A DNA stretch of 64,000 bases from Haloferax sp. Q22 (GTDB lineage Archaea > Halobacteriota > Halobacteria > Halobacteriales > Haloferacaceae), in assembly GCF_001482285.1 (NCBI RefSeq), contig NZ_LOEP01000007.1, positions 1 to 64,000 on the forward strand, read 5' to 3'. The notes beneath the pieces were generated by a model, which had not been told where the DNA came from, searched no databases, and worked only from the letters and a program-made list of their open reading frames with translations. Positions 1 to 3,732 of this stretch are shown here, piece by piece (the first letter of the stretch is position 1; each line of letters starts with the position of its first letter). A program made the position numbers and the translations under genes.

Positions 1-12
1 AAGCTACGTCTT

Positions 13-53
13 GCAGGGCGTTGGAGCTGGTGGACACAGTTTCCAAACCCTGC
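13..53. other. Two-part stem-loop at the left edge
   Basis: GCAGGG (13-18) pairs with CCCTGC (48-53) and TTGGA (21-25) pairs with TCCAA (42-46), giving a long interrupted hairpin. It lies immediately before a second hairpin. It could be the end of a structured RNA or of a mobile element lying mostly outside the window; nothing more can be said from this side. Confidence 0.4.
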
Positions 54-54
54 G

Positions 55-75
55 GCCTCCCTTGGGAGGCTTTCT
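55..75 (+). terminator. Stem-loop plus T-run, terminator-like
   Basis: GCCTCCC (55-61) and GGGAGGC (64-70) are perfectly complementary and are followed by TTTCT. This is terminator-like for a transcript coming from upstream of the window. Archaeal termination depends mostly on T-runs, and this run is short, so the call is tentative. Confidence 0.4.
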
Positions 76-103
76 ATGACACGCTCCCAACTTACAAGCA
101 TTC

Positions 104-1495
104 GTGACTATTGATCGCCTATTGCAGCCCTCGGTTAACGGACTTACTGAAGATCAACTTGAGATCGCCAGGAGTCTTGAAGATTTGGGGCTACTCCGTG
201 AAATTGAGGAACGAGAATATGTCAAATGCGTCTCGCCAGATGATCAGGATTACTTCGAAGTAAAGGAACGCGGGTGTGAAGAAGAGATATACCTCTTAGA
301 AGAAGCAGGCGTGAACGTAACCTGCCCCGGCTGTGGTCGGAATATTGAATTATTTAAAAAGACCCCCAAGTCTCGTCTAATCACACATCGTAACGACGAT
401 GGTATCTATTCACATATTCGTGACGTAATCAAGCAGGAACTTGGTGGCAGAGCCTCAAAAATAAGTAACGGACTTCGGTTCTTAGATACGCGATTGAAAC
501 CAGCGTTCAGTGTCAGTCATGGTGCAGATCGAACCCGCGTTCTGATCCAGTTTGAGTACGTGAGCTCAGAAATACTTGATTCGATACAAGTATTTGACCA
601 GCCATTAGTTATTGTTCTCGTTGGTAATGCAGTTCCTCAGGCGAACCAATATGAGCAGAGAGGACTCACAAGTATAGCGGCTTCTGAAATAATTGAAGCC
701 GGGGATAGTAGCACTGATATAGAACAATTGTTTTGTTCTGCCCGGGAATCAAATATTCCTGCCAATCAACTGGCCCAGAAAGGGATTGAGCTCTACAGAG
801 ACCATCGGTCGAGATACACTTGGCGTGAATTCGAACACACCGTGCAACACTGTTTTTCAGCATCTTTCGAGACATCTCGACTACTCGGCGGTGAAGAAAG
901 CGGAGAGCAAGTTCCTGAAGGAGTCTTATCGCTTGATTATGAAGATAGCTCACATGCGTATATCTGGGACGCAAAATATGTTCAGGAGCCAGATGAGAGT
1001 CGAAGTTTGAGTGGCGAATATGAAAACATGGCAAAGCATCTGGTCAATTTCCGCCGTGAATCGAATGTAAAGGACATCTATGATGATCTTGCAGGGTATA
1101 TCATCGTCTCTCCGAGCGTTTCAGAGAGTTCAATAGTTCGGCTCGCAGAGCGAATACAGCGGCGACTAACAGAAAATGATGATGACTGGAATGGCGCCGT
1201 AACACACTTGCAGTTTGATGCGCTAATCCACATATTCCAAGCTGTACAGTCAAATCGAGATGAGGTACAAGAGAAGCCAAAGGAATTCCGTAAGCACGTT
1301 CATAGGCTATTTACAAGGGGGAACTACCATGACCCCGATCCAGACACTTACAGAGAATCTGACCAGCGAGTATTTGACGTTTCTATAGAGGATGTAGATA
1401 GGGTATTCTGGGAATTCATCGCTCCGCAAGAACCAGAATCAGATCGCGTCAATATCGAAGGGTATCTCGCAAATATCCGGAGCTTAGACTTCTAA
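104..1495 (+). CDS. Putative PD-(D/E)xK restriction-endonuclease-fold protein with Cys pair
   Basis: 463 aa from a GTG start; no other start is open upstream because an in-frame TGA sits at 77. The N-terminal third carries C74-P-G-C77, with further cysteines at 42 and 58 that could complete a zinc site. The C-terminal half reads like an Mrr-type nuclease core: helix 'REFEHTVQHCF' (241-251), then P271-E-G-V, D278 and the strand end 'IWDAKY' (287-292), whose D289-A-K291 fits the (D/E)xK element. The assignment rests on these motifs only; the exact family is not recognised. Base composition is far below that of the main chromosome and codon use differs, indicating acquired DNA. A defence or mobile-element nuclease is the likeliest role, by inference. 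Confidence 0.6.
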   Translation: MTIDRLLQPSVNGLTEDQLEIARSLEDLGLLREIEEREYVKCVSPDDQDYFEVKERGCEEEIYLLEEAGVNVTCPGCGRNIELFKKTPKSRLITHRNDDGIYSHIRDVIKQELGGRASKISNGLRFLDTRLKPAFSVSHGADRTRVLIQFEYVSSEILDSIQVFDQPLVIVLVGNAVPQANQYEQRGLTSIAASEIIEAGDSSTDIEQLFCSARESNIPANQLAQKGIELYRDHRSRYTWREFEHTVQHCFSASFETSRLLGGEESGEQVPEGVLSLDYEDSSHAYIWDAKYVQEPDESRSLSGEYENMAKHLVNFRRESNVKDIYDDLAGYIIVSPSVSESSIVRLAERIQRRLTENDDDWNGAVTHLQFDALIHIFQAVQSNRDEVQEKPKEFRKHVHRLFTRGNYHDPDPDTYRESDQRVFDVSIEDVDRVFWEFIAPQEPESDRVNIEGYLANIRSLDF

Positions 1496-1509
1496 TTTAC
1501 TTCCACAAT

Positions 1510-1528
1510 CGCTACGTATTAGGTAGCG
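1510..1528. promoter_or_regulatory. Inverted repeat CGCTAC-N7-GTAGCG before the next start
   Basis: A perfect 6-bp inverted repeat with a 7-base spacer lies between the stop of the nuclease-like gene (1495) and the ATG at 1531, two bases upstream of the latter. It could be an operator or an RNA hairpin that uncouples the two genes. Its role is inferred only from position. Confidence 0.35.
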
Positions 1529-1530
1529 TC

Positions 1531-2229
1531 ATGTTAGATGAGGATATGGTGACCGAGTTTCAGCTTCTTATTTCTCTTCTCGGCGGCGTAATTGGTGGAT
1601 TCGGAACGAAATTCCTCTGGAATTACTACCGAAGGCCGGTTCTTGATATACGTGGAGTGAACATTCGAAAAGCAACAAATAGGGAGGGCGACATAACCAA
1701 TGCTCAGTATTCTGTAGAGATATATAACCGCGGCAAGAGTGCGGCCAGTAATTGTCGCGCTCGTCTCCATCTTGAAGGAAGATTCGATCGGACAATAGAC
1801 ACAGCCGAGATTGAGGCACTTGGTGATCAGGAGCATGTTGCTGATGGTTACGAAGCAAGCTATAATCTACCCTGGCGAGAAGGAAGAAATTCAGAAAGCG
1901 TGACTATCAATAGAGGGGAAACAATCGAAATTGAGCTTGTCACCGTTGACGCAGGTCAGGACGGGCCAGATTCATACATCGACCTTGTATTCCCACAAGA
2001 TCCGTCAAGGGCGGATGATACGGGAGCAATCCAGAAGCAAAAGTGGGGAATTGATCAAGGAGATAGTCCAGTAGTAGAGATGGTAAACCGGATTAGTAGA
2101 GAAGATTTCGAACAGATCCCTTGGCAAACAATGGTCGTGGAATTTTCAGGGGAGAGAACCTCGATGATCAGACGACAGCTCCAAATCACATGGGAGCAGA
2201 GCGTTATCCCCAATATTAATCTGAACTAA
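1531..2229 (+). CDS. Membrane-anchored protein of unknown function
   Basis: 232 aa. One hydrophobic segment near residues 8-28 ('LLISLLGGVIGGFG') is followed by a soluble beta-rich domain with 'YSVEIYNRGKSAASNCRARL', which resembles an immunoglobulin-like or CARDB-type strand pattern. No catalytic motif is visible. It follows the nuclease-like gene on the same strand, 35 bases after its stop, and shares its low GC. It may be a membrane partner of the nuclease, or an unrelated island gene. The family is not recognised. Confidence 0.6.
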   Translation: MLDEDMVTEFQLLISLLGGVIGGFGTKFLWNYYRRPVLDIRGVNIRKATNREGDITNAQYSVEIYNRGKSAASNCRARLHLEGRFDRTIDTAEIEALGDQEHVADGYEASYNLPWREGRNSESVTINRGETIEIELVTVDAGQDGPDSYIDLVFPQDPSRADDTGAIQKQKWGIDQGDSPVVEMVNRISREDFEQIPWQTMVVEFSGERTSMIRRQLQITWEQSVIPNINLN

Positions 2230-2448
2230 GAATTCCTTCTTCGACTACATCCGACCCCATGAGTCCAAATCATATATTGTTAAAATCAAAATTGTATTTG
2301 TTTGAGGGAATGGGAATAAAGTATCACATTCTGCCTTTCTCTACGAAACTGAACAGGTGGTATGGTAGGGATAGTGCCCCCTCAGTGTGTCAAGAATCAC
2401 TTATTTGTATGAGATCAATGAAGTCGAAGCAGCTAGAGAGGCCTATGT

Positions 2449-3219
2449 TTACGGTTCAACAATCCATTCTACTCCACCAGGATACGAATAAATGACCGAT
2501 GTTTCCTCACATCGGGACTGTATCTCTGCGATAGCTGCCCTACCACGCTTTTGATGTACTGATGTTGTGTTAACATTCCCGCAGCAGAGGAGGTCAAATG
2601 GGGAACAAATCATGAGGTATGCACTTTGGTACGTATTCACGCCAGCAAGATCCTCAAGTTCAGCAATATCGTTAGCAAGACCAAGCTTTTCTAAATTCAC
2701 GGCATTTTGTAACTCATTCCTTGGAGTGTCAGCAACCACCTCTGGAGAGATCGTCAACGGCACTATCGGATCCTGTGGTCGCTTCAATTCGATTAGTGCG
2801 TCAATTGCCTCATCCTCTATCCGGATCTTACCGTTGATCAACCGAGGTGGGCGATCTATCGGCTGATTCAATACAGCGATATCTACAATATTCGCTAAAT
2901 CGCCTTTGAACGCCTGTGAGATACGTACTTCCGTATGCACTCGTGACATAGGGGAATTCCCGTACGAGTTCTGAAGTCGTTCGAAGTTTTCTCTAATACG
3001 TTCATGATATGTCTCCTCTACGTAGTTCCGATTATGGCTCAACCGAATCGGATTATCCGCCCAGTATGGATCCCACTTTGCCTTCAAATTATTTTCCGCC
3101 CTAAGCTCATTCCGTAACGCCTCATAAACCCTAGCCTGAATGTCATTCTCGTTAAAGAATTCGAATGGCCTTTCACTGAATTCAAGCGACACCTCCTCTA
3201 AGACATCATCTACATTCAT
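2449..3219 (-). CDS. Second putative PD-(D/E)xK nuclease-fold protein
   Basis: 256 aa, convergent with the two upstream island genes. The order of elements is that of restriction-endonuclease-like folds: helix 'NENDIQARVYEALRNEL' (23-39), 'RVHTEVRI' (93-100), 'VDIAVL' with D113, then 'ALIELKR' with E144-L-K146. The roughly 30-residue gap between D113 and ExK holds a basic loop and a strand. There is no fused methylase, helicase or DNA-recognition domain. Low GC matches the rest of the island. The specific family is unknown; a defence or anti-plasmid nuclease is plausible but inferred. Confidence 0.6.
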   Translation of the reverse strand: MNVDDVLEEVSLEFSERPFEFFNENDIQARVYEALRNELRAENNLKAKWDPYWADNPIRLSHNRNYVEETYHERIRENFERLQNSYGNSPMSRVHTEVRISQAFKGDLANIVDIAVLNQPIDRPPRLINGKIRIEDEAIDALIELKRPQDPIVPLTISPEVVADTPRNELQNAVNLEKLGLANDIAELEDLAGVNTYQSAYLMICSPFDLLCCGNVNTTSVHQKRGRAAIAEIQSRCEETSVIYSYPGGVEWIVEP

Positions 3220-3278
3220 ATCCTAACTACCGATCATATTATCACATTACTATTAACATCTTGTCTGCGCTCGTCGGT

Positions 3279-3665
3279 GTGTTCGTCCAAAAAGCGCGCA
3301 AATCGGGTTACTTCTATTGGGAAGCGAGGATAACGGCGAGCAGCCGAGAGAGATTCCGAAACATAGGGCACATCTCGGTGGAAATCTCTGCGCCGTCTGT
3401 CGGTTTAAGTGTGAATCCAGATTTCTTTCATAAATAGTTTTGTGAGTCGGTGATAATTACTGGTTCGAGTGCGTGTTCGTCCAAAAAGCGAGCAAATCAG
3501 TTTACTTCATCTGGGTAGCGCGGATGGTTCCCTTCAATCGAGGGGAGTTCCGCTACATAGGGCGCATTGTTTGATGTATCCCTGCGCAGTCTATCGGTTT
3601 GAGTCTGAACCGGGTTTTCTTCTATAAAAAAATTCGTAAGTCGGTAATAGTTACTGGTTCGAGTG
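3279..3665. repeat. Two 193-bp diverged direct repeats, probably a decayed coding duplication
   Basis: Copies at 3279-3471 and 3473-3665 align end to end. Both begin GTGTTCGTCCAAAAAGCG and end TACTGGTTCGAGTG. Read on the minus strand, both copies give related peptides ('TRTSNYYRLTNFF' versus 'TRTSNYHRLTKLF', ending 'ARFLDEH'), and many differences fall at synonymous third positions. Stops (TGA, TAA) and a frame change interrupt them. This looks like a tandem duplication of a short coding segment that has since decayed. The 3220-3732 interval, otherwise gene-free, consists mainly of this repeat and marks the junction between the low-GC island and the GC-rich chromosome. Confidence 0.65.
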
Positions 3666-3732
3666 CCGAGGCCATCTTCTCCGAAGGTCCGACGGTGGAG
3701 GAGACCGTCGAGTCCGGGCGGCTTGACCGAGT

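Follow-up and report, generated by a model that had tools for sequence, protein, structure and literature searches.

The first 3.7 kb of the window, by which we mean the whole stretch of DNA analysed (64,000 nucleotides from Haloferax sp. Q22), is low in GC and is the right end of a mobile element integrated in a haloarchaeal chromosome. It carries three genes, P1, P2 and P3 (Table 1). On the reading that we prefer, and to which we would give roughly even chances, P1 supplies the nuclease half of X-P1, an endonuclease in two parts that serves restriction defence and has a remote branch in McrBC operons, and P2 and P3 are separate cargo. The functional partner of P1 would be neither P2 nor P3 but gene X, which falls beyond the contig edge and is missing because the window starts at the start of the contig. 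Three anonymous genes are in this way turned into a testable statement: P1 belongs with X, the end of the element is placed and P1 has a probable role. X-P1 would be a nuclease of the restriction type whose architecture and context are unusual. The family recurs in several haloarchaeal families, besides its remote branch in McrBC operons, and would be a further type of restriction nuclease in archaeal defence.

Table 1. Features of the low-GC stretch and its chromosomal junction (window positions)
Feature	Position	Strand	Basis
Putative 3' end of X, 34 codons then TGA	3..107	+	frame open from contig edge, its TGA overlapping the P1 start codon
P1, nuclease half of the X-P1 family, 463 aa, GTG start	104..1495	+	11-sequence alignment, profile search, AlphaFold2, Foldseek, tree
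Zinc-ribbon-like region of P1 (Cys 42, 58, 74, 77)	227..334	+	four cysteines invariant in 11 sequences
PD-(D/E)xK core of P1, residues 240-370 (E244, E272, D289-A-K291)	821..1213	+	invariant residues, element order, best structural matches
P2, membrane-anchored, 232 aa, possible Ig-like (CARDB) domain	1531..2229	+	hydrophobic N-terminus in family
P3, putative PD-(D/E)xK nuclease, unnamed family, 256 aa	2449..3219	-	8-sequence family alignment
Two tandem copies of a 194-bp non-coding unit	3279..3666	+	direct repeats, 76-85% identity over three blocks, spacing 194
Right attachment-site core GAGTGCCGAGGCCATCTTCTCC	3661..3682	+	left-junction core without one base at C23:24541; intact site in genome G376

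The integrated element and its attachment site

The GC content is 45.5% in positions 1-3655 against 67.5% in the remainder of the window, and every other stretch of this length (3.66 kb) in the window has at least 63%. The earlier note, made on the letters alone, had described the low GC and three open reading frames; both descriptions are borne out (0.455 against 0.675; all three frames are present), and its suggestion of a defence-like, horizontally acquired setting is supported. It had also reported no methylase, helicase or integrase. This holds only for the visible stretch, where we too saw no methyltransferase, as the first base of the window is the first base of its contig (C54) and the left side of the island lies outside the contig.

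To the right of position ~3656 the window matches two genomes of the same genus at 93-95% identity. In one relative, G376, no island interrupts this chromosomal site; in another, G239, the site is taken by a different low-GC island, which carries a tyrosine recombinase. A core of the form GAGTGCCGAGGCC(A)TCTTCTCC is present at both junctions of the element, at window position 3661 and at position 24541 of contig C23, which holds the left flank in the same genome; the left-junction core is one base short of the right one. The two marks expected of an integrated element are both present: a direct repeat bounds it on either side, and a relative keeps the site free of any insertion. Beyond C23:24541 follow 47 kb of DNA of ~50% GC up to the contig end. 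C23 and C54 are taken as the two ends of one element because of their chromosomal flanks; if they are, the element is at least 50 kb long, with no read joining the two contigs and no overlap between their ends. No integrase of the element itself is found in the visible 3.7 kb, and none was recognised on C23 by eye.

The site is an integration hotspot (window 3661-3682; C23:24541; L115:9930; L116:9728), being empty in G376, filled by the recombinase island in G239 and by another island here. Each of the tandem 194-bp copies at the right end of the island finishes in TTCGAGTGC, with which the attachment core begins. The unit is unique to this spot within its own genome, and the two copies are possibly the scar of successive insertions. 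Near the end of C23 (65033-71453, L126) lie a C5 methyltransferase-like gene, a MutY/EndoIII-like glycosylase and unnamed genes, which share an element with P1 only if C23 and C54 join.

P1 and its partner X

We read P1 as a FokI-like PD-(D/E)xK nuclease, with an active site that is well supported and an exact affinity to FokI for which the evidence is suggestive. In the alignment of its family (n=11) E244, G267, D289 and K291 are invariant and P271-D272-G273 is nearly so, residue 272 being Asp in 10 of the 11 sequences; the window copy alone has Glu there, in place of the Asp of all ten relatives compared. An acidic residue followed by Asp and (D/E)-x-K, the signature of the PD-(D/E)xK superfamily, is conserved among family members. 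The motif residues picked out in the earlier note (E244, E272, D289-A-K291) stand as it gave them, and since E244, D289 and K291 are invariant they are beyond chance. The cysteine region of P1 gave profile matches that are at chance level and are mostly zinc ribbons.

The AlphaFold2 model of P1, built on a four-sequence alignment, reached a pLDDT of 63 and a pTM of 0.52. Its nuclease part runs helix-strand-strand-helix-strand-helix-strand, which is the element order of the PD-(D/E)xK fold, and FokI and the nickase Nt.BspD6I account for the nine best matches of the model in a Foldseek search of the PDB. No match reaches E 0.001, the lowest E being 0.012, and the lower ranks include Cap4 and Bax1 among unrelated entries. 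In this check, which the earlier note had proposed, element order and best matches fit such a nuclease but the scores stay below significance, and the exact fold of P1 is a prediction from a model of moderate confidence. An hhalign comparison of the P1 family with FokI placed the two in register with a score above those of 30 shuffles, at a probability below 3%. FokI and Nt.BspD6I share with P1 the PDG...D-x-K motif at the same 17-residue spacing (D-T-K in FokI, D-A-K in the P1 family), and, as in X-P1, their nuclease stands at the C-terminus, behind a large part for recognition that is a presumed one in X-P1. X-P1 differs from them in having no significant sequence similarity to either, in its zinc-ribbon-like region and unrelated X half, often encoded by two genes, and in the lack of a cognate methyltransferase seen beside the split pairs.

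P1 and P3 match nothing significantly in Pfam, NCBIfam or PADLOC, nor does X in Pfam or PADLOC; sequence searches of the PDB with the P1 and X profiles gave chance or zinc-ribbon matches alone. A weak PADLOC match of P1 to SspB (E 0.0097) received no support from the relatives and was rejected, and a weak one to phrog_25990, a family of no known function (E 8e-5), gave no lead. Marginal matches to P1 residues 319-410 in many genomes were set aside as noise, those read in three genomes being RadA-like recombinase genes.

The gene X, of ~415 aa, lies directly upstream of P1, overlapping or abutting it, in each of the four closest relatives of P1, which are the split ones: Natrialba aegyptia DSM 13077, Halovenus rubra R28, genome G326 and megaplasmid 2 of Halobacterium sp. 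GN101. Elsewhere the two are fused as halves of a single protein of 840-850 aa, with lengths of 842-843 aa, and H. rubra has both the split and the fused form. Searching 392 genomes with a profile of X gave ten loci at E < 1e-7, each of them in or beside a P1 relative, and three further matches that are short and marginal (E 0.005-0.009). In the tree all split forms, the window copy included, fall on one side of a 100/98 branch. The structure prediction for X gave no usable model (pLDDT 37) and no recognised domain was found in it, and a role in recognition is our guess.

In the window the frame that runs from the contig edge into the start of P1 may be the end of X. Its end-anchored likeness to the C-termini of X (p = 0.0016 by shuffling) is suggestive only, and the X HMM does not detect the frame. 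The X profile found no copy elsewhere in this assembly, including the far end of C23, so that X either lies inside an assembly gap or has been lost. The local P1 may be impaired, because X is unseen in this strain and Glu stands at the first catalytic position, E272 replacing an otherwise universal Asp. That the window copy is a decaying remnant, with X gone and P1 inactive, is nevertheless an unlikely reading: the P1 frame is full-length and keeps all other key residues, and it overlaps an upstream frame running off the contig, as would be expected with X in the gap.

The X-P1 pair of GN101 (L081 9992-14482) adjoins Csm3-like and Cmr3-like genes, an HRAMP-like locus, and a death-on-curing toxin gene adjoins the same locus. 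HRAMP, the haloarchaeal RAMP system with Cas5/Cas7-like proteins, has been described as including additional nucleases (PMC8730458). At the other three split loci, by contrast, Cas5/Cas7-like neighbours are absent, and in GN101 X-P1 is set apart from the Csm3/Cmr3-like genes by a TFB-like fragment and a shift in GC. With one of four split loci showing it, a link of X-P1 to HRAMP was set aside.

McrBC operons and the probable action of X-P1

McrBC is a type IV restriction system in which McrB is a GTPase and McrC a nuclease. In five genomes (G046, G027, G361, G163 and G270) an McrB-McrC operon has as its third gene a remote full-length relative of X-P1, ~786-795 aa long. The first gene of the operon is McrB-like (AAA_5 1.6e-17, with an MNxxD motif) and the second McrC-like (McrBC 1.7e-10), as tested in G046. 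The N-termini of these relatives match X in profile comparison (94.5%, E 8e-8) and the homology to X-P1 therefore extends over the full length. This branch is probably the third subunit of an McrB-McrC type IV restriction complex. Neither McrB nor McrC lies beside the window form or its closest relatives in the neighbourhoods read, so the association belongs to the remote branch alone. The passages found in the CoCoNuT census of McrBC systems name no such archaeal third subunit.

The McrB-like/McrC-like/X-P1-related nuclease operon is conserved among haloarchaea (L098:2126-7603; L099, L100, L101, L102) and sits in islands with a DUF1156 methylase, in some cases also with a DUF262 gene. Other members of the X-P1 family lie near Mrr, HNH-like, DUF262 (GmrSD/SspE-like), type IIG and DUF1156 genes.

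Probably X-P1 is a restriction nuclease made of two parts, and most likely one that depends on DNA modification. X and the zinc-ribbon region would recognise foreign DNA, most likely through base modification, and the FokI-like PD-(D/E)xK core of P1 would then cut this DNA, as restriction defence. We favour such a type IV-like mode over a type II mode because no methyltransferase was seen immediately beside the split pairs and because of the remote link to McrBC.

We think it improbable that X-P1 is instead an ordinary type IIS-like enzyme, reading unmodified DNA, with its protecting methyltransferase elsewhere on the element. The best structural matches of P1, FokI and Nt.BspD6I, would agree with this, as would the C5 methyltransferase-like gene near the end of C23, which shares the element with P1 provided that these contigs, C23 and C54, hold its two ends. 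The contiguity of that gene with P1 is not shown, however, and no methyltransferase was seen immediately beside any of the four split pairs (N. aegyptia, G326, H. rubra and GN101). The linked cognate methyltransferase that marks a type IIS system was found neither immediately beside these pairs nor in the visible part of the window island, the rest of the element here being unassembled, and the remote relatives join McrBC, a modification-dependent system.

It is similarly doubtful that X-P1 serves the mobile element itself, either against competing plasmids or viruses or in maintaining the element. The element in the window is integrated, one X-P1 pair is on megaplasmid 2 of GN101 and that of G326 lies beside integrase-like genes, all of which would fit such a role. 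Against it, several fused forms are found among chromosomal restriction genes, and no relatives of X-P1 occur in IMG/VR viral contigs (none of P3 was found there either).

Returning to X-P1 as a defence nuclease, the wider proposal would be that it forms an undescribed haloarchaeal family with three forms (a pair of genes, a single protein and a third, nuclease-bearing subunit of McrBC), and may be an independently mobile type IV sensor-nuclease unit. This is plausible, at somewhat under even chances. A literature search found no description of X-P1; the original HRAMP paper and many subscription papers were outside its reach.

P2, P3 and the adjacency of the three genes

The searches for P1, P2 and P3 all covered one set of 392 genomes of the order, 391 besides their own. 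Homologues were found in 14 of the other genomes for P1 (by profile; a single-sequence search of the same genomes gave three strong relatives), in 13 for P2 and in 12 for P3, and none of these 391 genomes carries two of the three families. An overlap of ~0.4 genomes per pair of lists is expected by chance, and the lists therefore look independent. In the neighbourhoods read, members of the three families are never adjacent to one another. The three genes are most likely separate accessory or cargo genes that are adjacent here by an accident of accumulation.

The earlier note had seen in them a candidate for a single undescribed three-gene defence or conflict module, on the strength of one contiguous low-GC stretch in which P1 and P2 share a strand and are 35 bp apart, but this is highly improbable given that their homologues occupy non-overlapping sets of genomes and do not neighbour each other in the loci read, that P3 is on the opposite strand and that P1 has a different conserved partner, X. 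The search for the same trio in other haloarchaeal genomes, which the note had put forward as a check, found none, and no genome shares the neighbourhood. Its description of the individual proteins fared better. Two putative PD-(D/E)xK proteins are supported by residues conserved in their families, they are not detectably related to each other, as it had supposed (profile comparison probability 0.2%), and the membrane-anchored protein between them is supported by a hydrophobic N-terminal stretch that is conserved in the relatives of P2.

The match of P2 to CARDB in Pfam is weak (E 0.0056) and below the cut-off. In several genomes relatives of P2 lie next to a DUF1156 DNA methylase and to other restriction genes.

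P3 is a putative member of a separate PD-(D/E)xK nuclease family, of ~240-275 aa, with conserved D113, E144-x-K146, Y244, P247 and W252. The motif noted earlier in P3 (D113, E144-L-K146) is present as described and is kept in the family (n=8; D113 in 8/8, E144 in 7/8 and K146 in 8/8), so it is beyond chance and gives the family the D...(D/E)-x-K pattern of PD-(D/E)xK nucleases. NucC is the sole nuclease in the list of PDB matches of P3; it has an Asp and then Glu-x-Lys in register with D113 and E144-x-K146, but the similarity is at chance level only (E 0.41). No CBASS cyclase lies near relatives of P3 in the loci read, and P3 was set aside as a CBASS effector with no cyclase nearby. In two genomes (L064:5623-7445; L069:6652-8480) a P3 relative overlaps the end of a conserved gene that is M29-type aminopeptidase-like by eye, an odd repeated placement for a putative nuclease.
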